Shown piece after piece: positions 18,683 through 41,013 of a stretch of 41,528 nt of DNA. A model generated the notes under the pieces. The model was not told where the DNA came from. It saw only the letters and a list, made by a program, of their open reading frames with translations, and did not search any database. Made by a program: the position numbers and the translations under genes. This stretch comes from a virus. How positions within the stretch are numbered: position 1 is the first letter of the stretch; every line of letters starts with the position of its first letter. The stretch is taken from IMG/VR virus record IMGVR_UViG_3300050343_000181, positions 1 through 41,528 of that record. One strand, 5' to 3'.

Positions 18683-19763
18683 TCAACCGACAGAAGGTGC
18701 GGTGAGTGCCACAGGAGTGGACTCAGCAGCAGCAAGGTCGAGTGGGAAGTTGTGTGCGTTACGCTCATGCATAACTTCCATGCCCAGACCTGCACGGTTC
18801 AGTACGTCTGCCCAGGTGTTGAGCACACGACCCTGACCATCAAGGATGGACTGGTTGAAGTTGAAACCGTTCAGGTTGAACGCCATCGTGGAAACACCAA
18901 GTGCGGTGAACCAGATGCCAACAACAGGCCATGCAGCAAGGAAGAAGTGCAAGCGAACGGGAGTTGTTGAATGAAGCGTATTGGAAGATCAGGCGACCGA
19001 AGTAGCCGTGAGCTGCGACGATGTTGTACGTCTCTTCTTCTTGACCGAACTTGTAACCATAGTTCTGTGACTCTTGCTCAGTCGTCTCACGGACGAGTGA
19101 AGAAGTAACGAGACTTCCGTGCATAGCAGAGAACAAAGATCCACCGAATACCCCAGCAACGCCGAGCATGTGGAACGGGTGCATAAGAATATTGTGCTCT
19201 GCCTGGAAGACAAGCATATAGTTAAAAGTACCAGAGATACCAAGAGGCATAGCATCAGAGAAAGAACCTTGACCGAAAGGATAGACTAGGAATACTGCTG
19301 ATGCTGCTGCAACTGGTGCAGAGTATGCTACACAGATCCATGGACGCATACCTAAGCGGTATGACAGTTCCCACTCACGACCCATATAGGCATAGATGCC
19401 GATGAGGAAGTGGAAGATTACGAGTTGGAAAGGACCACCATTATACAGCCACTCGTCGAGCGATGCGGCTTCCCAGATGGGGTAGAAGTGAAGACCAATT
19501 GCGTTGGAAGATGGTACAACTGCACCAGAGATGATGTTGTTACCATACATGAGTGAACCAGCGACGGGTTCACGGATGCCGTCGATGTCCACGGGGGGAG
19601 CAGCGACGAAGGCGACGATGAAGCAGATAGTTGCTGCCAACAGAGTTGGAATCATCAGTACGCCGAACCAACCGACATAGAGGCGGTTATTGGTAGAAGT
19701 TACCCACTCGCAGAACGAATCCCACGATGAGGTTGTTTGTTGCCTTGAAAGTGTTGAGGCCAT
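18683..19763 (-). CDS. psbA: Photosystem II D1 protein PsbA (one inserted base)
   Basis: D1 turns over fast in light, and phage copies keep photosynthesis running during infection. The sequence is D1 throughout: [60 protein letters not shown] and the C-terminal [16 protein letters not shown], where processing after DLA exposes the Mn ligand Ala344. Residue 130 is Glu, as in the high-light D1 form. The frame breaks at about 18957, where CTTGCAC has one T too many for S-L-H-F-F; the span is one base over 360 codons. No intron or homing endonuclease is present. Confidence 0.95.
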
Positions 19764-19812
19764 TGTAATTGAAAAAAAGTAAGATCATCAGGGAAATGAT
19801 GGTTTTACTATT

Positions 19813-19917
19813 CCTGTATCACCCTTAGATACAGGTATTAAAGACGTGTTTAGACACCCTAGAGGTCTTGGTTTGCGGGGTGTTGCGACTTGTTAAGGAA
19901 TGTGTTGGTTCCTTAAC
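19813..19917 (-). promoter_or_regulatory. Structured 5' leader of psbA
   Basis: About 160 bases separate the psbA promoters from the ATG. The leader holds three perfect inverted repeats: GTTAAGGAA/TTCCTTAAC (19892-19917, 8-base loop), ACACCC/GGGTGT (19854-19883) and CCTGTATC/GATACAGG (19813-19835, 7-base loop). This suggests control of mRNA stability or translation. Confidence 0.6.
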
Positions 19918-20541: not shown

Positions 20542-21012
20542 ATGACTTCTGGAAAGACAATCATATATATTGTGATGTCTGCAGTGGCAGCAAGTCTTAT
20601 TCCTGCCACTGCCCTGGCGGTCCCCGTGGTCCCAAACTTCACACAGGGCTCAATGACAAGTCACACGGAAACAACGTCGAAGGTGACTGAAACGATTAAC
20701 TCTATAGACTATGCAACAGGATGGCAATATTCAGTATCGGGAACAAACGTGACCAACGGGGGACAATCCCTCAGTCCAAACCCAACGACAAACTCAGTGA
20801 TCGTGAATCCATTAGGAGGAACAGAGGGGCAAGTAACAAGCGCCAACTCTGGTCTCGATTTAAATGGACAGAGTTTCACGATCGCAGAACCAGGAGCAGC
20901 ATTCCAGTTCACTCAGACCTACATGGGACCGGGTGTAACGAATCAAACTGTGATTCAAAGAATCACAGAGGTTACAAGCATCACAGACACAACAAGTATC
21001 TTTACCCAATAA
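20542..21012 (+). CDS. Exported beta-rich protein 2
   Basis: 156 residues, frame intact. Signal peptide MTSGKTIIYIVMSAVAASLI... ending near ALA, then a Thr/Asn/Gly-rich domain: SMTSHTETTSKVTETINSID, YSVSGTNVTNGGQS and FTQTYMGPGVTNQTVIQR, ending TSIFTQ. A strong GGAGG lies 7-8 bases before the ATG. The composition matches its neighbour at 20027, suggesting a functional pair. No function known to me. Confidence 0.7.
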   Translation: MTSGKTIIYIVMSAVAASLIPATALAVPVVPNFTQGSMTSHTETTSKVTETINSIDYATGWQYSVSGTNVTNGGQSLSPNPTTNSVIVNPLGGTEGQVTSANSGLDLNGQSFTIAEPGAAFQFTQTYMGPGVTNQTVIQRITEVTSITDTTSIFTQ

Positions 21013-22008
21013 AAGTATTATGTCTATCTGCCCTGACTGCGGTTGTAACTGCCCCTGCTCATGCAGCGGATGTAGGGGGTGTAAGTGCAACAGCAAACCC
21101 AATCGCAAATAGTTCAGGCTCGGTTACCAACCAGGCCATTCAGGTATTACAAGGACCATATATAACCAACCAATATGGTGGTGGTATTGCATGTCAAGGA
21201 CCGACTGCTAATATCACACCATTCATTACTCATGCTCGTAATGAGAAGGATCCATTTGAGACACATTACATGGAACCTCAATATGATAAAGAGATTTTGA
21301 AGGTCAGTTAGTAGAAGTTACAAAGAATGTAAAGAACTGGCCTTGGGATCATTATGATGATAGAACATATACAAACTCCGCAGGTGAAACTGTTCGTGCC
21401 TTATGAAGATGGTGCAGACATGCCTATCACAGTTATGGAAATGATGGGTGATGGTGTGCCTGATAATCCAGGAGCAGAACTCTGGGAAAAACCAGTAAGA
21501 ACTGGTGACACTAGAAACTACAGTACTAGTCTTGGTTTATCTGCAACAATCTCTTTCCCACTTGATGGTGGACTACAAGAACGTTGTAAACAAGCAGCAG
21601 ATACTCAAATCCAAATGCAGCAACAGTTGATTGCCAATAAACGCTTAGACTTTGAGATCGCAAGACTTAAAAATTGTGGCGAACTAATGCAGAGCAGGAA
21701 TCAGTTTCCACCCCAGAAGCCCTTATTTTAAAATATGTGCAGACGTGGTAGTGCAAAATGTCAATACCGTCAAGCAACATCGTCACTCTATCCCTTCGGC
21801 TTCAGTGCCGAACGTAGAATCTTTATCGCCCGGTTCCGGTCGCGTTGCTCCGCCTTCCTCTCAGCAGCAGACAATACCGGGGGCTTCTTACCCCGTAAGG
21901 TCGCAATCTTCTTCACAACCTTCTTCGTCACAGGTTTCACCACTTTTAACAAAAGGTCAGCAAGAGGTTTTGCAAGCAGTGCCGAGGTCGTTGCCACCAC
22001 AGCGATAG
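21009..22008 (+). CDS. Exported protein 3, coiled-coil C-terminal part (frameshifted)
   Basis: A signal-like KVLCLSALTAVVTAPAHAAD precedes GVSATANPIANSSGSVTNQ, then IQVLQGPYITNQYGGGI. Later frames give NVKNWPWDHYDDRTYTNSAG, VPYEDGADMPITVM, LGLSATISFPLDGGLQERC, a Gln-rich coiled coil, RLDFEIARLKNCGELM and a Ser/Gln/Pro-rich end QEVLQAVPRSLPPQR. At least three indels are needed. The in-frame start falls on ATAAAA at 21009; ATGAAA would give both the start and the previous stop, so a base error is likely. The last 221 bases are antisense to the gene at 21788-22602. Confidence 0.6.
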
Positions 22009-31837: not shown

Positions 31838-32988
31838 AGGTTTACAATAAAGATGTCTTCAGTGATGTTGAACTTGTTGTCCACGAATCTTACCATATCA
31901 CCATAGGTTTTGTCAAGGTATTCAGACACTTGAGGTGTGACCCTTCTGTCATTCTGAATATAGACCTTATGTCCTCTCTCTAGAAGGTCTAAAGCCAAAC
32001 GATACTGTTGACTCTCTGTAAGAATATCTGTTCCCTTCTTGTAGGTAATATACTCAAAGTAGTATGGGAGTTTGTGTGAGTTCATTGTATCCCAATAATC
32101 ACATACGATCTTCGCATGTTCGTTATTGAAACCATCTGTAACATAACCTAGGTTATACTCCAGTCCTACAGCCTTAGCGAAGTGTGCGAAGGCTCTGTTA
32201 TCTCTAGGAAGACAAGGACCACCATAACCTACACCCCAACCAAGATACTTCTTACCGATACGACTATCACATCCAACAGCACTTAGGACTGCGGTAACCT
32301 CATCACCACATCCTGCCATATGAAGGACATCACCTAACATATTGGCGTAACTGATCTTAGTTGTAAGGAAACAATTGACTGCAATCTTAGTAATCTCTGC
32401 AGACTTTGTACTCATAGTACAAACAATTGCTCTGTTGATTTGAATCTTCTTATAAAGATCCTTGATATCTTTTACAGTTCTATCATTCTCCATTTCCTGA
32501 TCAATACCAAGAAGAACCATATCAGCCTTCTTAAGATCACTCACAATACTACCCTGTGCAATAAACTCAGGGTTATACATTACCTGTACATTACTAGGAA
32601 GTTGTGAAGTAAATTGATCACAATCACCAGGGTTGGTGGTACAACCAATCACCAGATACTTTCTACTCTTTACATCACCAAATTCTTCTACAACCTGCCA
32701 CACAGCAGATACATCATATGATCCATCATCATTAGATGGTGTTTGCACAAGAGTATAGATGAGATCACACTCATCAATTACTTCTTTGTTGTTAGTTGTT
32801 GCTCTAAAATTCTTTGATACTCTGAGTAGATCTTCTACTTCAGGTTCATTAGTTGTGATCTTCTTCCGGTTTAGATCATTTACATAATCCTCACGAATAT
32901 CTGATACCAGAACATCGTAACCAGCTTGTTCACAAAGAAGGGCAAAACAGATACCTAATCTGCCTGCCCCAATAACTCCAATTTTCAT
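31834..32988 (-). CDS. Nucleotide-sugar dehydrogenase (UDP-glucose/GDP-mannose type)
   Basis: 384 residues. The N-terminal NAD domain begins MKIGVIGAGRLG (GxGxxG); the catalytic cysteine is C259 in GYGGPCLPRDN, with K201 and N205 of the central helix in place. These enzymes oxidise a nucleotide sugar twice to its uronic acid. Length is slightly below the usual 390-450. Part of the overlapping sugar operon; product not determinable (UDP-GlcA or a 2-acetamido form are candidates). Confidence 0.85.
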   Translation of the reverse strand: MKIGVIGAGRLGICFALLCEQAGYDVLVSDIREDYVNDLNRKKITTNEPEVEDLLRVSKNFRATTNNKEVIDECDLIYTLVQTPSNDDGSYDVSAVWQVVEEFGDVKSRKYLVIGCTTNPGDCDQFTSQLPSNVQVMYNPEFIAQGSIVSDLKKADMVLLGIDQEMENDRTVKDIKDLYKKIQINRAIVCTMSTKSAEITKIAVNCFLTTKISYANMLGDVLHMAGCGDEVTAVLSAVGCDSRIGKKYLGWGVGYGGPCLPRDNRAFAHFAKAVGLEYNLGYVTDGFNNEHAKIVCDYWDTMNSHKLPYYFEYITYKKGTDILTESQQYRLALDLLERGHKVYIQNDRRVTPQVSEYLDKTYGDMVRFVDNKFNITEDIFIVNL

Positions 32989-33725
32989 AGTGTAAATGTA
33001 GGAATAGGTTGCATCTTATGTTGATTTTGTTGATTAAACCGATAGAGAATGTCTACACCTGGACCTGTGCCCGCCTCCATTGCTTCTTCGAGATCACCGT
33101 ATGAGCAACCAATCTGATCCTCATCAGTTCGTCCATCGTCCCACAGACCATCTGTAGGATTAGCAGCAATGATTCGTTGGTCCACGCCAAGATGTTTTCC
33201 AAGTTCCCATACTTCAGTTTTATATAAGTCAGCGATGGGTGCGATGTCAACCCCGCCGTCACCATATTTAGTATAGAACCCAACACCATAGTCTTCAACC
33301 TTATTTCCGGTTCCCACCACAATACCACTCACAGATCCAGCGACCTGATACAGAGTTACCATGCGAAGACGAGATCTAGTGTTCGCAAGAGAAAGTTTGT
33401 CATCATTATACCCATCTATAGTGGATACAAATGTATCAAAGGTTTCTGATAAGTCATACTTAAGTCTGGTTACATTGGGATATTTCTGCTCCAACCAGTC
33501 AAGATGTGCGTCTGACAAATCCTCTTGTTCTTCTTTCTGATGAATAGGCATACCCAGCACATAGGTAGGCAATCCCGTCTCAGCAGAAAGGGTGGAGGAG
33601 ACAGCAGAATCAATTCCACCAGACACACCCACCACAAGGGACTTAAGTTTATTCTCTTTTACATATGCTTTCAACCAGTTAACAAGTCTTCGCTTGACCT
33701 GATCGTAATCTTCAATTCTGTTCAT
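32985..33725 (-). CDS. nadE: Ammonia-dependent NAD synthetase
   Basis: 246 residues with the N-type ATP pyrophosphatase loop SGGIDSA (35-41), GTGNKVEDYGVGFYTKYGDG for the adenylate and P2 loop, and IAPIADLYKTEVWELGKHL, all typical of NadE. It lacks a glutaminase domain, so ammonia or a host amidotransferase would supply nitrogen. It makes NAD from deamido-NAD; alternatively, in a sugar cluster, a NadE-like enzyme may amidate a sugar acid. First gene after a 37-base gap with an extended -10 element. Confidence 0.8.
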   Translation of the reverse strand: MNRIEDYDQVKRRLVNWLKAYVKENKLKSLVVGVSGGIDSAVSSTLSAETGLPTYVLGMPIHQKEEQEDLSDAHLDWLEQKYPNVTRLKYDLSETFDTFVSTIDGYNDDKLSLANTRSRLRMVTLYQVAGSVSGIVVGTGNKVEDYGVGFYTKYGDGGVDIAPIADLYKTEVWELGKHLGVDQRIIAANPTDGLWDDGRTDEDQIGCSYGDLEEAMEAGTGPGVDILYRFNQQNQHKMQPIPTFTL

Positions 33726-33762: not shown

Positions 33763-34140
33763 TTAGTCACCCGGAATGACTCTATGACTGTCTTCATCAA
33801 AATGCTCTGTGCTGAACTCAAATAGTTCAGTATCTTCCAGAGCCAGCATCTGATGACGTTGGTTGCGATACACATGAAACTTATCACCTTTGCTCAAGAT
33901 AATCTCATCAGAAAATTCAATCTCATCATCGGAGGAATGTCTCAATGAAATCTTTCCACTCTGCACATAGAAGACCTCATCTTTCTTTTCATGATAATGC
34001 CAAGAGCATCTCTTGCCCTTTGCGATGAACAGAAGTTTCCCGCAATACTCTTCACAGTTTACAATCCACTTTTCATATCCCCATCCTTTGGAAACATACT
34101 TGATTGGTTCGTCTGCTCTAATCGAAGAAGTCTGTGTCAT
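33763..34140 (-). CDS. Cupin-domain protein (sugar isomerase-like)
   Basis: 125 residues from the ATG at 34140. VSKGWGYEKWIVNCEEYCGK and GKRCSWHYHEKKDEVFYVQSG give the HxH...E metal site of cupins, and GDKFHVYRNQRHQML the second motif. Such single cupins in sugar clusters resemble the isomerase domain of type II phosphomannose isomerase. Substrate unknown. It overlaps the HAD gene by 23 bases. Confidence 0.7.
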   Translation of the reverse strand: MTQTSSIRADEPIKYVSKGWGYEKWIVNCEEYCGKLLFIAKGKRCSWHYHEKKDEVFYVQSGKISLRHSSDDEIEFSDEIILSKGDKFHVYRNQRHQMLALEDTELFEFSTEHFDEDSHRVIPGD

Positions 34141-34444
34141 TGATACCCTTGTCGTCAATATAGAAATCACCAGACGGTTTACCTAGGAATAATTGATGAT
34201 ACTTACATCCCCACAAACTTAATTGTATTTCAGTAAGTTCGTAGAACTCTTCCTGTGCTCGGGTGGCATTGTTTTTGAACCGACCCATGCCCCTGGCAGT
34301 AAGGTAGACGATAGTGTGACCCTCGTCGTATAACTTATTTATTTTATCAATCCTACTCTGGATTGGCAATGCTTCAGTATAGCGGGTCTCTTCAGTTTTG
34401 CCAGGAGCGCAGATCGTCCCGTCAATGTCAACCACATACCTCAT
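34118..34444 (-). CDS. HAD-superfamily sugar phosphatase
   Basis: 108 residues: VVDIDGT with D6 and D8 (motif I nucleophile and acid), VYLTARGMGRF (motif II Thr) and SGDFYIDDKGIND (motif IV acids). A minimal capless HAD. Between a heptose-type kinase and a cupin, it may play the role of GmhB (removal of a phosphate from a heptose bisphosphate), but sequence alone does not fix the substrate. Confidence 0.75.
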   Translation of the reverse strand: MRYVVDIDGTICAPGKTEETRYTEALPIQSRIDKINKLYDEGHTIVYLTARGMGRFKNNATRAQEEFYELTEIQLSLWGCKYHQLFLGKPSGDFYIDDKGINDTDFFD

Positions 34445-35177
34445 TTACGTCCCCCTCAGTCAATATATAAGTTCCAAAGTGCGTGACAGCAATTGCTGCT
34501 GCTTTGTTTGCATATGGAATTGCTTCTTCTATTTTACCATAGATTAAGTAAAAATATACTAAAGCAGAAAGAAATGTATCACCAGCACCTACCACATCAA
34601 AGACACCAACTCCAACACCTGGATAATTCTTGCCTTGATAGTCAGCACCTTTAGGTCCTTTGGTGACGATTAGATTACCAGTCTTATTATCCAGTTTGTT
34701 ATATTCATCATTATTGATCTTGATAAACGCATCATTCACTGGGAGAGTGGTCTTCTTACTATCAATGAATACTGGTCCATCAAACCACTTTACCAACTCA
34801 AAAATTTTTTCCGTTGTAAGAAATCCTTTATCATAATCAGATATAACTAAGGCATCAAAGTGCCCCTTAGGCATATCAAAATGAAGAGGTTCTACAGGTT
34901 CCTCCAAATCAACACGGAGCATCTGTTGATTATATCTCTCATCAATATATCTACGCTTTACTATCTTCTCCTCTTGAGTCATCATATACACTTCTAGTCC
35001 GAAAGAAAGCAAGTTCTCTCGGACATTCCATGCCATGCCTTTTTGTATTTCAGTTCTCTTCTGGTGAAGAATAGGAACAGGTGCCTCTGGATTCAGTCTC
35101 TCACATACACCATAGATGTATTGGTCTTCACAACTATCCCCGATCAATAATACTTTCAATGGTTTTTGTTGTTGCAT
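34428..35177 (-). CDS. PfkB-type sugar kinase, HldE N-domain-like
   Basis: 249 residues: LLIGDSCEDQYIYGVCERLN PEAPVP (ribokinase family start as in heptose-7-phosphate kinase), SDYDKGFLT, and DVVGAGDTFLSALV with the catalytic Asp of GAGD. The adjacent gene encodes the matching nucleotidyltransferase, so the two halves of HldE are separate genes here. Expected reaction: phosphorylation of a heptose (or related sugar) 7-phosphate at C1. Overlaps its neighbours by 17 and 44 bases. Confidence 0.75.
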   Translation of the reverse strand: MQQQKPLKVLLIGDSCEDQYIYGVCERLNPEAPVPILHQKRTEIQKGMAWNVRENLLSFGLEVYMMTQEEKIVKRRYIDERYNQQMLRVDLEEPVEPLHFDMPKGHFDALVISDYDKGFLTTEKIFELVKWFDGPVFIDSKKTTLPVNDAFIKINNDEYNKLDNKTGNLIVTKGPKGADYQGKNYPGVGVGVFDVVGAGDTFLSALVYFYLIYGKIEEAIPYANKAAAIAVTHFGTYILTEGDVNEVCG

Positions 35178-35535
35178 ACTTTTCTATTCTATCAAAGAAT
35201 CTCAATTCAGCAGGGTACATTGAACCAATCACTGACTTACCTTTCCAGTCAGATCCTACAACCATTATATCAGGTTTTATTGTTTTGATGCAACCTTCCA
35301 ACTGCTCATCACTATCAAATACTACGACATAATCTACAGCTTTCAGACTTTGAAGCATAAATGCTCTGTCTTCCACAGAATAGACTGGTCTAGAAGGTCC
35401 TTTCTTTTCTGCGACCCTCCTATCACTATCTATGCCAACTGTCAGAGTTCCCCCTAGAGACTTGGCATAGTTGAGAAGTTGAACGTGACCTGGATGAAGG
35501 ATATCAAATGTCCCGTTGACAAAGATATGTTTCAT
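35134..35535 (-). CDS. Cytidylyltransferase-family enzyme, HldE C-domain-like
   Basis: 133 residues from the ATG at 35535. VNGTFDILHPGHVQLLNYAK contains the HPGH nucleotide-binding motif, KSLGGTLTVGIDSDRRVA the second strand, and VVFDSDEQLEGCIKTIKPDI the sugar side. Matches the adenylyltransferase domain of HldE. With the kinase next to it, it likely activates a sugar 1-phosphate to an ADP- or CDP-sugar. Confidence 0.75.
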   Translation of the reverse strand: MKHIFVNGTFDILHPGHVQLLNYAKSLGGTLTVGIDSDRRVAEKKGPSRPVYSVEDRAFMLQSLKAVDYVVVFDSDEQLEGCIKTIKPDIMVVGSDWKGKSVIGSMYPAELRFFDRIEKYATTKTIESIIDRG

Positions 35536-36349
35536 AGACTTTGCGAATTCCATTTACTAAACCACTATATTCAATAGGCAAGTTATTTGCTTTTCCAACA
35601 TACGGAAATATGGGATGCTGTCCTTCAGATTGAATGTCAACCTTATGAGGACCTAGGTGATTGATAATCTCAGCGATATCACTGAGCATATACTTACGAT
35701 TATAAACACAATTTACATCTCTTGGTCCATCATTACCATCAAGATAATACTGAATAATCTTATAGAGGTCATCAGCAAAGATAAAATCCATCTTCCGATC
35801 TTTGACAAGTTGAATAGGTTTCTTATTAATATATTGATTGATGTTAGTGTTAAAGAATCGTGTGCTCTCTTCATGCTCACCAAAGCATCCAAAGATACGA
35901 AGATTCACACCCTTTGGATTATCTAATACACGTTTGGCAATAACATATTTTGAGAATCCATATGGATCACTTGGAATAACTTTACCAAAGTCTTCTGGTG
36001 AGGGTTCATCAACGGGAGCAGGACGACCATATGATGCACCACTATCCAAATTGATGAACATGTCAGTCTGATCAACATACTTATACAGGGTCTCAAACAT
36101 ATTGAGATTAGTATACAGAACTCTATAATCATCATCAAGGTCTCTTCTGCCACCGACAATGGCAGCATGAATGATTGCATCATAGTGTTGACCATCATCA
36201 AATAGGGTAGCAACTTCTTCATCAACCTGAAGTCGAACCTGAGTTGATCTTGGTCTAACTACCTCATATCCTGATTCCTGAATGAAAGGAATTATCTGAC
36301 GACCAATAAAACCATTACCACCAGTGAAAAGAATCTTTTTACTTGTCAT
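35504..36349 (-). CDS. NAD-dependent sugar epimerase/dehydratase (SDR)
   Basis: 281 residues of the extended SDR family: TGGNGFIG at 9-16 binds the cofactor; SGASYG provides the Ser and YGFSK (about residue 130) the Tyr-Lys catalytic pair. Pattern resembles GDP-fucose synthase-like or dTDP-sugar reductases. In this cluster it could be the reductase that finishes a deoxysugar. Overlaps the nucleotidyltransferase by 32 bases. Confidence 0.8.
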   Translation of the reverse strand: MTSKKILFTGGNGFIGRQIIPFIQESGYEVVRPRSTQVRLQVDEEVATLFDDGQHYDAIIHAAIVGGRRDLDDDYRVLYTNLNMFETLYKYVDQTDMFINLDSGASYGRPAPVDEPSPEDFGKVIPSDPYGFSKYVIAKRVLDNPKGVNLRIFGCFGEHEESTRFFNTNINQYINKKPIQLVKDRKMDFIFADDLYKIIQYYLDGNDGPRDVNCVYNRKYMLSDIAEIINHLGPHKVDIQSEGQHPIFPYVGKANNLPIEYSGLVNGIRKVYETYLCQRDI

Positions 36350-37205
36350 GTTTCCAACCTGCTCCTTGACCTAAAAGTTTTTCGAGTTCTTCATCTTTGA
36401 TCTCATAGAAGTTCTCCTGTGATGGGAATTTAACATCACGAACTTCATTCACATATTCAGTCAGAGCAGACTGAATCATCTGACCTGCCTCACAATATCG
36501 TTTCACAAACTTGGACTTGAACTCCCAGAAGAGTCCAACCAAGTCATGCATAATGACCAGTTGACCATCAACTCTGTCACCAGCACCAATACCATACACA
36601 GGAATATCAAGATTGGTAGCAATCATCTCAGCAGACTCTCTAGGCATACCCTCAAGAAGTAAGAAAGTACATCCAGCATCCTGAAGACGCAGTGCCTGGT
36701 CAAGAATGACCTTTGCCTGATCAGCAGTCTTACCCTGGACACGATATCCACCAAGTTTGGCACGGGTATGAGGAGTCAAACCAAGGTGACTCATCACCAT
36801 GATACCAGCATCACAGATTGCCTTGACCCGTTCTACCATACAACCTTCGACCTTGACGGCATCCATGCCAGCCTGAATGAAGTCACCAGAATTTCTTACT
36901 GCCTCTTCATTAGAAACCTGGTAGGACATATAAGGTAGATCACCAACAGTGAACGCACGAGTTGTGCCTCGTGCTACTGCTCTAGCAGACCGCAGCATAT
37001 CATCCATGGTGACTGGAATGGTGCTCTTGTATCCCAAGGTGGTCATACCAAGAGAGTCACCAACCAGAATCCAGTCAACACCAGCATTGTCTGCCATCAG
37101 TGCCTGTGGGTAATCATAGGCAGTGACACCAACAGTCTTTACATTGTTCCGTTTTTGTTTGCGTAACTTCAGAATAGTTACTTTATCTTTGTTATCAGCG
37201 GGCAT
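36339..37205 (-). CDS. panB: Ketopantoate hydroxymethyltransferase PanB
   Basis: 288 residues. PanB adds a hydroxymethyl group from methylene-tetrahydrofolate to 2-oxoisovalerate. All key residues are present: VGDSLGM with D50, VGDLPYMSY with D89 (metal), VKVEG with K118 and E120, HLGLTPH, GGYRVQG, LLLEGMP with E185 (base) and GIGAGDRVDGQ. Frame intact, overlapped by 11 bases with the SDR gene. Unusual in a phage. Its place next to a ThDP enzyme in a sugar cluster suggests either a pantothenate boost or a role in making a branched sugar; both are inferences. Confidence 0.9.
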   Translation of the reverse strand: MPADNKDKVTILKLRKQKRNNVKTVGVTAYDYPQALMADNAGVDWILVGDSLGMTTLGYKSTIPVTMDDMLRSARAVARGTTRAFTVGDLPYMSYQVSNEEAVRNSGDFIQAGMDAVKVEGCMVERVKAICDAGIMVMSHLGLTPHTRAKLGGYRVQGKTADQAKVILDQALRLQDAGCTFLLLEGMPRESAEMIATNLDIPVYGIGAGDRVDGQLVIMHDLVGLFWEFKSKFVKRYCEAGQMIQSALTEYVNEVRDVKFPSQENFYEIKDEELEKLLGQGAGWKHDK

Positions 37206-37206
37206 T

Positions 37207-38892
37207 TCAGTCTAGGGGCTTAACGATCATATTATCATGAAATTCCTCTCTGGACAAGAAAGGATACATGTCTTCTAAAGGCGGTGCGCTAATCGTACCG
37301 TCAGGATTTTTTCTACCTTGCATCGTAGGAACAACCTCCTGCCATTTTTCACAAAGGACCTCACATACAATGGGTCCATCATAGTCAAGAGCAGTAGCAA
37401 TAGAACCTTCTAAACAATCAGCATCAGCATACACATGCTCAATGCCAAAACTCTTTACCACTTCACGGATGTTTGGAATAGATACACCACTCTCAGGATC
37501 AGTTCCAATCTCTCTACCTTCAAAGAACTTCTTCTGTGTGGTACGGATGGAAAGATATCCATCGTTGTTCCACACAAATAGTTTAACTGGAAGATTGTAG
37601 TGGGCAATAGTCTGAAGTTCTTGTAAGTTCATCATAAACGAACCATCACCAGTCACTCCAATCACATCACCACCCTTAGCAAACGCAGCACCAATACAGG
37701 CAGGAATAGTAAATCCCATCTCTGCCTGAGAACTGGATGTGATGAACCTTTGCTTTGATTGAATCTCTGTTGCCTGAGCACAGACATAGAATGCTGAACC
37801 AGCATCAGAGATGACCACATCATCATTACGCTTGAGGTCATTGAGACACTTCATGAAGTAGTAGAGATCTACTTTCTCTGTGGGATTTGTGTCAGGACAG
37901 ACTGGCCATTGGTCTTTCCAACGCTGACATGTTTTGTTCCAATCGGTCTTCTCACGATCAAACACATTGATGTTAAGAAAATCCTTAGCATCACGATGAA
38001 TGAACCGATCAATCTTTACAGTTTCTTTGGAGTGTTCATCCTTATCAATATCAACTACAATTACTTTTGCCTCTCTAGCAAATGTAGTATAGTTATATCC
38101 AGTCACAGGGACAGAGAGACGACAACCAATTACCAAAAGCAGATCACAGTTCTGCATCGCAAAGTTACCAGCACGGGTTCCTTTGACACCCACTCTACCC
38201 ACAAAGTTTGAGTATACAGAAGGGAACAAGTCAACAGCATTGTATGAAGTGACTACAGGAATACTAGTTCTCTGAACAAATTTAATAAACTCATCACGGG
38301 CTTGAGCACAGTTGATACCGTTACCTGCCAGGATAAGAGGTCTCTTTGCTTCTCTCAATTCAGACTCAATGTCAAAACACTGAGCCCCTTGTACGTCCAT
38401 AGGAATATCAACCCATACAGGACCAGGACGACCATGAGTAGCAATCCGAATCGCATCTTTCATTACCTCCTCAATGTCTTCGGGATCATTAACCACCACC
38501 GCATACTTGGTAATTGGTTTCACAATATCAATGATATTTGCTTCCTGAACACCAAGGTTTCTGACACCCTCTGGTGCCATGTGAGGGCGATTGACATTAC
38601 CAGACACAAAGATGACAGGAACACTGTCCTGCCATGCGTCTAGAAGTCCTGTGATGGCATTTGTTCCACCACATCCTGTGGTCACATTTACTGCTGCCAG
38701 ACCATTATTGTACTTGGCATATGCCACAGCACCCATAGCAGATGCCTGTTCGTGATGGTTGATGATGGGTTTAATCTTACCATGTGCTGCTACAGCATCA
38801 TTCAAGAACATCGCACCACCACCAGTTACAAGGAAGATATGTTCACAACCTGCCTTATAAATCTGGTCTACAACATAATCCGCTACTCTCAT
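37207..38892 (-). CDS. ThDP-dependent enzyme, acetolactate-synthase-like (YerE type?)
   Basis: 561 residues, full three-domain ThDP enzyme. N-terminal PYR domain with the activating glutamate E48 (HHEQASAMGAVAYA), central domain around 180-330, and PP domain with TGDGSFMMNLQEL (415-427) and WNNDGY (441-446) for Mg-ThDP. It resembles acetolactate synthase large subunit, but no small subunit is present. Next to an RfbH-type dehydrase, the best analogue is YerE of yersiniose synthesis, which attaches a two-carbon unit from pyruvate to a 4-keto-3,6-dideoxysugar. One base separates it from panB. Confidence 0.75.
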   Translation of the reverse strand: MRVADYVVDQIYKAGCEHIFLVTGGGAMFLNDAVAAHGKIKPIINHHEQASAMGAVAYAKYNNGLAAVNVTTGCGGTNAITGLLDAWQDSVPVIFVSGNVNRPHMAPEGVRNLGVQEANIIDIVKPITKYAVVVNDPEDIEEVMKDAIRIATHGRPGPVWVDIPMDVQGAQCFDIESELREAKRPLILAGNGINCAQARDEFIKFVQRTSIPVVTSYNAVDLFPSVYSNFVGRVGVKGTRAGNFAMQNCDLLLVIGCRLSVPVTGYNYTTFAREAKVIVVDIDKDEHSKETVKIDRFIHRDAKDFLNINVFDREKTDWNKTCQRWKDQWPVCPDTNPTEKVDLYYFMKCLNDLKRNDDVVISDAGSAFYVCAQATEIQSKQRFITSSSQAEMGFTIPACIGAAFAKGGDVIGVTGDGSFMMNLQELQTIAHYNLPVKLFVWNNDGYLSIRTTQKKFFEGREIGTDPESGVSIPNIREVVKSFGIEHVYADADCLEGSIATALDYDGPIVCEVLCEKWQEVVPTMQGRKNPDGTISAPPLEDMYPFLSREEFHDNMIVKPLD

Positions 38893-40160
38893 TTCTCAAA
38901 CGAATCAACTACAGTTCCAACATACTCAATCATGTCTTCAGTGATTGTAGGGGAACAACCAACAAAGAACACCAGATCAAGAACCTTACAAGCATTTGGA
39001 TAGTTCCGATAGTAATCAAGGTGGCGATAACCAGGATGCATCAGAACATTACCAGCAAAGTAGTTACGAGTCTGAACCTTGTTATCTTCCAGGTGCTTGG
39101 TCAGTTTAGTCTTGGTCCCTACACTATCACAGATGATGGGGACACCAAACCAACTGGTCTCTGCTTCAGGAAGTTCATCCACACTACGGACACCAGGAAT
39201 GCGTTCAAAGATTTCCTGCATCAGAACCTTGTTCTTACGACGCAGACGATGAATCTCATCCTGCTTAGTCAGTTGAACAGTCCCGATAGCACCCTGGAAG
39301 TCCATGGGTTTCAGGTTGTATCCCATCTGAGAGTACACATACTTGTGGTCAATGATGCCATCATAATGCTCAATCCACTTATCAAATCTCTTACCACAAG
39401 TGCCGCAGGCAAGCAGATTCTGTTGACCCACACAATAACAATCACGACCCCACCATGCCAGACTACGGGCAATGTTGATCAGTTCCTCATCATCAGAGGA
39501 AATCATACCACCCTCACCAGTACAAATATGGTGAGCAGGATAGAAGGAGCAAGATGCTGCGATAGAGTGGTCAGTAAGGAAACGATCTTTCCACTTACTA
39601 CCCAGACTGTCACAATTGTCTGAGACCAACATGATCTTATTACGATCACAGATGTCTAAGACATCATCCAAGTTATATGGATTGCCCAGAACAGGAGATG
39701 AGAACAAGGCACGGGTCTTGGTAGAGACCTTCTCTTCAATCTCATCAATGTTCCAGTTCAGATCAGAGAAGTCAATATCAACGAAGATTGGTTTCAGACC
39801 ATTCTGAACAATGGGTGCGATGGTGGTAGGGAAACCAACGCTACACACGATGATCTCATCACCATCTTGCCAACCAAATCGCTTCTTCAAAGCAGCAATC
39901 ATAATCAGGTTGGCAGAACTACCAGAGTTCACCATCAAGGAGTGACCCTTGTTGAATTGTTTGGAGAACTTCCTCTCAAACTCATACACCTTCTCACCAG
40001 ATGCCAACCACTTACCGTTCAGAAGTCCATTGACAGCTGCTGCCAACTCCTGGTTATCCCAATAAGGACCAGAATAATATACGGGATTGCCTGGTTTCCA
40101 CTCACTGTTAGCAAAGTAAGGAGGTTTTACACCTTCAAGCAGTGCTTCAACATCAACCAT
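38889..40160 (-). CDS. rfbH: RfbH/E1-type CDP-4-keto-6-deoxyglucose 3-dehydrase
   Basis: 423 residues of the DegT aminotransferase fold, but the PLP lysine is replaced by histidine in SFYPAHHICTGEGG (H210), the mark of PMP-dependent E1 dehydrases. The iron-sulfur cysteines match: C183, 57 residues, C241-Y-C243, and a downstream CGKRF cysteine (C255), close to the C-X57-C-X1-C-X7-C pattern of E1. It removes the C3 hydroxyl of CDP-4-keto-6-deoxyglucose on the way to 3,6-dideoxyhexoses. Partners RfbF, RfbG and the E3 reductase are not in the window. Four-base overlap with the ThDP gene. Confidence 0.88.
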   Translation of the reverse strand: MVDVEALLEGVKPPYFANSEWKPGNPVYYSGPYWDNQELAAAVNGLLNGKWLASGEKVYEFERKFSKQFNKGHSLMVNSGSSANLIMIAALKKRFGWQDGDEIIVCSVGFPTTIAPIVQNGLKPIFVDIDFSDLNWNIDEIEEKVSTKTRALFSSPVLGNPYNLDDVLDICDRNKIMLVSDNCDSLGSKWKDRFLTDHSIAASCSFYPAHHICTGEGGMISSDDEELINIARSLAWWGRDCYCVGQQNLLACGTCGKRFDKWIEHYDGIIDHKYVYSQMGYNLKPMDFQGAIGTVQLTKQDEIHRLRRKNKVLMQEIFERIPGVRSVDELPEAETSWFGVPIICDSVGTKTKLTKHLEDNKVQTRNYFAGNVLMHPGYRHLDYYRNYPNACKVLDLVFFVGCSPTITEDMIEYVGTVVDSFEK

Positions 40161-41013
40161 TTTGGACCTCGTTCAAATAATCATTTACATCATCAGACAC
40201 AACAGAGGATAACCAGTTTCTGAATCCTCCATGTGATTTATTTAATTCACCAGCAATACTACCACCTGCCTGGTGTAGAACTTTGATACACATAGGTTCC
40301 TGTGTGACCGGATCATCAAGCCACAGTCTATCATCTTTTACGTAAATTTGCGACCAACTTTCCCAATGATTGTTAGGATCGTCACCCCAGCAACTACAAA
40401 TACCATACGATACATTAGTACCAATAGCATCAATCACCTCAGAATTATACTTGTCCCAATGGAACAACTGATTGAGTGTGTCATTCTCATCACCCAGACC
40501 AGGGAAACAAGGATTGATCTCTCGCTTAACCCGTGCTGCCTCGATGTTCAGTGCGTGCCAGTCATACCAGAACTCAGGTCCATTGGCAGCAATCAGTCCG
40601 GCATTGATGAAACCCTGGACAGGAATAGGTTCATTGTTTCCCCAGGGTTCAATATGATTGATTGTAATGCCACCATGAGATCCTGCTTTACCGAAACTAT
40701 TATTGTTCCGAACACCAATGACATCAGCATCACTATTGAATAGTTCATCCAGAGGTCCAGTGACGACAGCATCAGCATCCAGGTGAACCACCATGTCATA
40801 CTTATCCACATAGGGCAGACAAGTAGGTGCCATCATCCAGATGGGTTGCATCCAAGGCAACTGTTCATTCACAACATTAGTCATCTCTGTATTGAAGATG
40901 ACATGATCCACATCAGGATGGAAGTATTTGATTGAGTTTGCTAATTTATCAACACCTAGCAGTTCGGCAAAGTCGTCCGTACACCAGGTGGATACACAGA
41001 TCTTCTTACTCAT
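40153..41013 (-). CDS. Glycosyltransferase, GT8-like
   Basis: 286 residues, GT-A fold: N-terminal KKICVSTWCTDDFAELLG, VVHLDADAVV with the DxD motif (D79, D81), and QGFINAGLIAANGPEFWYDW typical of retaining GT8-like enzymes, with HQAGGSIAGELNKSH near the end. Sugar donor unknown. It overlaps the rfbH gene by eight bases and the partial gene upstream by eight bases. Confidence 0.7.
   Translation of the reverse strand: MSKKICVSTWCTDDFAELLGVDKLANSIKYFHPDVDHVIFNTEMTNVVNEQLPWMQPIWMMAPTCLPYVDKYDMVVHLDADAVVTGPLDELFNSDADVIGVRNNNSFGKAGSHGGITINHIEPWGNNEPIPVQGFINAGLIAANGPEFWYDWHALNIEAARVKREINPCFPGLGDENDTLNQLFHWDKYNSEVIDAIGTNVSYGICSCWGDDPNNHWESWSQIYVKDDRLWLDDPVTQEPMCIKVLHQAGGSIAGELNKSHGGFRNWLSSVVSDDVNDYLNEVQNG

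Follow-up and report, generated by a model that had tools for sequence, protein, structure and literature searches.

The window, the whole stretch of DNA analysed here, is a 41,528-base IMG/VR virus record (IMGVR_UViG_3300050343_000181). Its baseplate and tail genes, together with phoH, psbA and a PhotoRC-II cis-regulatory RNA directly 5' of psbA (RF01717, 71.9 bits; window 19800-19895), mark it as a fragment of a marine cyanophage. On the minus strand, three intact ORFs follow one another: an RfbH/E1-type sugar 3-dehydrase (38889..40160, 423 aa), a YerE-like ThDP-dependent decarboxylase/ligase (37207..38892, 561 aa), and a PanB-family hydroxymethyltransferase of a glycan-type clade (36339..37205, 288 aa), the last being the proposed maker of a 4-hydroxy-2-oxoacid donor. 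The dehydrase and ThDP genes overlap by 4 nt and a single nucleotide separates the ThDP gene from PanB, which bears out the sequence-only reading of the locus as three adjacent intact genes with minimal spacing. Low dN/dS values against a relative (PanB 0.035, ThDP 0.081, dehydrase 0.071) indicate purifying selection on all three genes. Many other viral contigs have the same set, which is therefore not a chance arrangement. The loci compared below come from a viral PanB search in which the 80 best of 103 confirmed relatives were kept; with L197 and the window these make 82, and with L082 and L083, 84 loci. The search was tuned to relatives of the query, and the statements made here concern these relatives, not all viral PanB.

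The module is embedded in a run of glycan genes on the minus strand. Downstream, overlapping PanB by 11 nt, lies an SDR of the NAD-dependent epimerase/dehydratase family (35504..36349), homologues of which are present in 57 of the 84 PanB loci. It is followed by an HldE-domain-II-like nucleotidyltransferase (35134..35553), an HldE-domain-I/PfkB-like kinase (34428..35177), a HAD phosphatase-like protein resembling EcbF/BcbF (34118..34444), and a cupin (33763..34170). Directly upstream, an ORF at 40153..41013 on the minus strand overlaps the dehydrase by 8 nt; it has homologues in 25 loci, gave no match to Pfam or NCBIfam, and is probably glycosyltransferase-like. The run also includes nucleotide-sugar dehydrogenase-like and fucosyltransferase-like ORFs, both named by eye from sequence. 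Within this phage glycan operon, a nadE-like NAD synthetase gene (32985-33725) adjoins the nucleotide-sugar dehydrogenase-like gene and is kept in 9 related loci.

Two further observations concern the window outside the glycan genes. The psbA (D1) ORF (18840-19763) shows an apparent frameshift: it covers profile positions 1-274 of 359, and the C-terminal part of D1 (...FNFNQS) lies in another frame, so that either the contig has an error here or the gene is broken. At 20721-21731, the family phrog_848 is matched in consecutive portions by two neighbouring plus-strand ORFs, which points to a second frameshift or a split gene.

The dehydrase and the ligase

The best PDB match of the dehydrase is E1, CDP-6-deoxy-L-threo-D-glycero-4-hexulose-3-dehydrase (3bcx, 250 bits). 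An early look at the sequence had noted histidine instead of the PLP lysine, along with the Fe-S cysteines of E1, and both hold: His210 stands where the 3bb8 chain has Lys, and C183-X57-C241-X-C243-X11-C255 corresponds to the E1 set, with a last spacing four residues longer (X11 vs X7). The score against the NCBIfam RfbH equivalog model (PRK15407) is below the cut-off (367.9 vs 423 bits), which counts against the pathway proposed below; the enzyme is therefore described as an E1-like 3-dehydrase, with no claim to a CDP substrate. A DegT-homologous dehydrase is found in 69 of the 84 PanB loci, and all 69 in which the catalytic position could be resolved have His there. These fall into three sequence types: E1-like with the cysteines, 'FYFGH' and 'FYASH'. 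No Lys-type DegT protein was seen among the 84 loci, where two further DegT fragments do not span the site.

The 4-keto sugar on which such a dehydrase would act is expected to come from a 4,6-dehydratase. None was found within the 41.5 kb window, which also counts against the model. Among the relatives, 32 PanB loci have an RmlB-like NDP-sugar 4,6-dehydratase next to the module, and 6 of 18 window-type viral records have a strong match to GDP-mannose 4,6-dehydratase at a distance of about 10 kb, where it could instead serve GDP-fucose. The occurrence of RmlB-like and GDP-mannose enzymes suggests that the sugar nucleotide probably differs between lineages. A CDP-sugar route had been expected at first; sugar 4,6-dehydratases do exist in related viruses, but CDP in particular is not supported for the window's lineage.

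The ThDP enzyme has all three Pfam TPP domains, a catalytic Glu48 and the cofactor motif G415-D416-G417. Its closest solved relative is JanthE of Janthinobacterium (PDB 8rph, 381 bits vs 229 bits for the best acetolactate synthase), and a profile of the viral family likewise scores JanthE at 600 bits vs 447 bits for the best acetolactate synthase. The C-terminal tail 'PPLEDMYPFLSREEF' is YerE-like; it is common to JanthE and absent from the acetolactate synthases aligned here. In a tree with JanthE as the sole YerE-like reference, standing in for YerE, ErwE, MygE and MMAR_2332, a 100/100 branch of length 1.11 parts the phage enzymes and JanthE from 7 ALS, GCL and PoxB, and the Chloroflexi and Prochlorococcus ThDP enzymes fall on the viral/JanthE side. 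The enzyme thus does not group with IlvB, a placement that the sequence-only reading had left to be checked, and 18 related viral records (some >110 kb, possibly incomplete) yielded no AHAS small subunit (PF10369). Three active-site positions of JanthE discussed in PMC12188165, V121, P293 and Y297, are conserved as V115, P262 and Y266, and Pro262 replaces the Arg of the ALS DDRVTG motif, as in JanthE. The two enzymes differ in the cofactor motif, CDG in JanthE and the canonical GDG in the window enzyme, and in having Lys567 (JanthE) or Thr523 (window enzyme). The ThDP genes are genomically linked to keto-deoxysugar dehydrase genes, both in viral PanB loci and in cellular neighbourhoods. By sequence the window enzyme is a YerE-like ligase, for which carboligation onto a ketone acceptor is predicted.

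PanB pairing and the proposed donor slot

A ThDP gene adjoins PanB in 82/82 viral loci (the 80 best of 103, L197 and the window) and in 84/84 when L082 and L083 are counted; in L004 it is clipped by the contig end. The two genes are always on the same strand, with a median gap of 5 nt, and the 82 viral loci fall into 43 clusters at 95% PanB identity. A control for query bias, anchored on an ordinary PanB, gave 113 viral relatives, with a ThDP gene in 79 of the best 80. The pairing also occurs in a Chloroflexi MAG, where a His-type dehydratase accompanies it, and in a Prochlorococcus single-cell genome, so that the question of whether PanB co-occurs with its partner elsewhere is answered by viral and cellular genomes alike. 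The PanB tree disagrees with the ThDP types: the PanBs of L076 and L081, loci with a type A ThDP enzyme, group with those from type C loci. Reshuffling of the PanB, ThDP and dehydrase types has thus left the pairing of PanB with the ThDP gene intact, a hallmark of functionally coupled genes.

L043, L033 and L083, comprising type B PanB-ThDP clusters and the Chloroflexi MAG, have a B12-binding radical SAM protein and an SDR in common, a hint that the sugar or its branch undergoes a further carbon modification. A PanB-ThDP cluster (L368) is present in IMGVR_UViG_2716884398 (130,604 bases), a record named unlike the metagenome-type ones that may be an isolate and possibly of use for experiments. 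Other candidates were set aside: ThDP/PanB matches in INPHARED were dropped as phage relatives because most were in bacterial-looking records, Microcystis phage MaAM05 was dropped because its panB sits with panC and suf genes, and plasmid matches were ordinary IlvB/IlvG and PanB.

The main new evidence comes from viral ThDP relatives lacking PanB, which often retain the acceptor genes and have another 2-oxoacid enzyme beside the ThDP gene. The neighbour is a 4-hydroxy-2-oxovalerate-aldolase-like enzyme in L230 and L243, and a NeuB-like synthase in L232, L238, L241, L242 and L237, the last assigned to its family by clustering. The NeuB-like neighbours could make an ulosonic acid for another purpose. 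Among 790 Chloroflexota and cyanobacterial genomes, 16 have such a YerE-like ThDP enzyme; the 15 newly read cellular neighbourhoods include a His-type RfbH in 11 and NeuB-like genes in 10. Two cyanobacterial clusters (L310, L311) have the order RfbG-RfbH-ThDP-MhpF-MhpE, in which acetaldehyde dehydrogenase MhpF and 4-hydroxy-2-oxovalerate aldolase (MhpE/DmpG) score above curated cut-offs. They share with the viral module the acceptor route, the ligase family and, in the neighbouring slot, an enzyme that forms a 4-hydroxy-2-oxoacid, but have the aldolase and acetaldehyde dehydrogenase in place of PanB. An in silico study of more than 200 YerE-like clusters may already have noted aldolase partners. 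Near the viral ThDP gene of L229, L231, L233, L235, L240 and L210, which have no PanB, lie a DJ-1/PfpI protein, a cupin and a small HAD-like ORF. That some viral ThDP loci have such genes instead of a recognised donor enzyme counts against the model.

The known family reactions of PanB, 4-hydroxy-2-oxovalerate aldolase and NeuB all give 2-oxoacids with a 4-hydroxyl. Donors of this kind, 4-hydroxy-2-oxoacids, are preferred by ErwE, a YerE-like ligase (PMC12247030). PanB is therefore most simply understood as a donor maker.

A probable branched-sugar pathway

Taken together, these findings make it probable that the three enzymes work as a donor-acceptor module building a C-branched deoxysugar, with PanB making the hydroxylated donor. 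The RfbH/E1-type enzyme would strip the 3-hydroxyl off an NDP-4-keto-6-deoxyhexose to give an NDP-4-keto-3,6-dideoxyhexose. PanB would move a hydroxymethyl group from 5,10-methylene-THF onto a small 2-oxoacid, yielding a 4-hydroxy-2-oxoacid; the reaction is most likely that of pyruvate to 4-hydroxy-2-oxobutanoate, and ketopantoate or a product from 2-oxobutanoate is possible. The ThDP enzyme would then decarboxylate the 4-hydroxy-2-oxoacid and join the hydroxyacyl unit to the C4 ketone, generating a tertiary alcohol whose acyl branch is hydroxylated; the downstream SDR, a candidate reductase, may reduce the ketone of that branch. YerF is thought to reduce the corresponding branch ketone of yersiniose. 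Observed directly are the intact genes, their families, active-site residues and phylogeny, the obligate pairing and the swapping of the donor slot; from these we infer the substrate of PanB, all other substrates, the nucleotide and the final sugar. Decoration of a host or virion glycan would be our guess at the biological role.

Precedents for the chemistry are available. E. coli KPHMT hydroxymethylates several 2-oxoacids (PMC7611260), and a one-carbon transfer from 4-hydroxy-2-oxobutanoate to THF with release of pyruvate has been described (PMC8719824); a search of the open-licence literature found nothing on PanB together with 4-hydroxy-2-oxobutanoate. The erwiniose pathway of Pectobacterium (ErwE) likewise has a YerE-like ligase, a hydroxylated 2-oxoacid donor and a 4-keto-3,6-dideoxy sugar acceptor, but it is bacterial, its CDP sugar is established, and the text consulted (PMC12247030) names no PanB as maker of the donor. 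The yersiniose A pathway (RfbH/DdhC, YerE, YerF) also runs from an RfbH-type dehydrase to a ThDP ligase and has a downstream SDR, but uses pyruvate as donor, adds a two-carbon branch and is without PanB. The idea that PanB supplies a modified 2-oxoacid as acyl donor, put forward from the sequence, has gained support from comparative genomics through the pairing, the His dehydrases and the donor-slot swaps. The companion idea that the ThDP enzyme branches a ketosugar stands as far as a YerE-like ligase and a hydroxylated branch are concerned, but the two carbons then envisaged are not supported: if PanB feeds the ligase, the branch should have at least three.

The alternative closest to yersiniose is that the ThDP enzyme adds an acetyl branch from pyruvate, while the PanB product, a 2-oxoacid or hydroxyacid, is a separate substituent of the same glycan. 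YerE itself prefers pyruvate (PMC12247030), and the related ThDP loci with no recognised donor enzyme nearby fit such a scheme; but PanB abuts the ThDP gene and stays paired with it despite reshuffling, the slot holds aldolase or NeuB-like genes in other members, and an aminotransferase that would provide an N-acyl acceptor was not found in the loci, where all DegT proteins are of the His type. We consider this alternative unlikely.

The donor-maker reading can be widened, with somewhat better than even confidence, to a viral modular toolkit for C-branched sugars, in which a neofunctionalised PanB would turn a folate one-carbon unit into 4-hydroxy-2-oxobutanoate or a homologue, the slot would be swapped between PanB, aldolase and NeuB-like enzymes, and viral panB would be a glycan gene. 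If so, PanB gains a second role beyond vitamin B5 synthesis, folate one-carbon metabolism is linked to branched-sugar synthesis, and the published interpretation of a gene abundant in marine viruses is corrected. It would also provide a rule, applicable to clusters whose sugar is not yet known, that the gene beside a YerE-like ligase predicts the branch.

PanB and the vitamin reading

The window PanB matches PF02548 at 322 bits and TIGR00222 at 275.8 bits (cut-off 207.6). It belongs to the fold family of E. coli PanB (KPHMT), and the catalytic residues D45, S46, D84, K112, E114, H136 and E181 (E. coli numbering) are invariant in the 82 viral copies. The viral PanBs differ from 78 ordinary PanBs at I200 (Tyr/Phe), L213 (Val), V214 (Ile), I212 (Leu) and V183 (Met); the window protein has I200Y, I212L, L213V, V214I, V183M and Q142H, and lies outside any pantothenate operon. 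Positions I202, I212 and V214 bear on substrate scope in E. coli KPHMT (PMC7610986). By themselves, the pocket changes do not fix the substrate. A second viral clade, 43-46% identical to the window PanB, has the same M183, L212 and I214 and also adjoins a ThDP gene. The viral family forms a clade apart from ordinary PanB, with altered pocket residues. It is rare outside viruses: beyond the Prochlorococcus and Chloroflexi genomes, no comparable score was found among 790 genomes.

A marine virome study interprets an abundant viral pantoate transferase as a pantothenate/CoA booster (PMC8940887). Applied to the window, PanB would be an auxiliary metabolic gene that raises host pantothenate/CoA, its place in a sugar operon being incidental. 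The score above the equivalog cut-off and the intact catalytic residues agree with this, as does the published interpretation; the separate clade with its altered pocket does not, nor does the ThDP neighbour in 82/82 loci and in 79/80 with the ordinary-PanB query. In addition, panC was not found in 18 related viral records (some >110 kb, possibly incomplete), and the two cellular genomes with a viral-type PanB, one from Prochlorococcus (single-cell) and one from Chloroflexi (MAG), each have a second, ordinary one. We regard a vitamin role here as distinctly unlikely, and the reading of marine viral panB in PMC8940887 as probably wrong for this PanB family, meaning the sequence clade only, as judged from the gene context of that clade.

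Very improbable is the proposal that the ThDP enzyme is an acetolactate synthase which, with PanB, boosts valine/pantothenate metabolism: both proteins have relatives in that route and the top NCBIfam models are acetolactate synthases, yet the scores are far under the model cut-offs (TIGR00118 329.7 vs 538 bits), and the 100/100 tree split, the missing Arg of the DDRVTG motif, the lack of an AHAS small subunit among the 18 records and the nucleotide-sugar genes that are always close by all speak against it.
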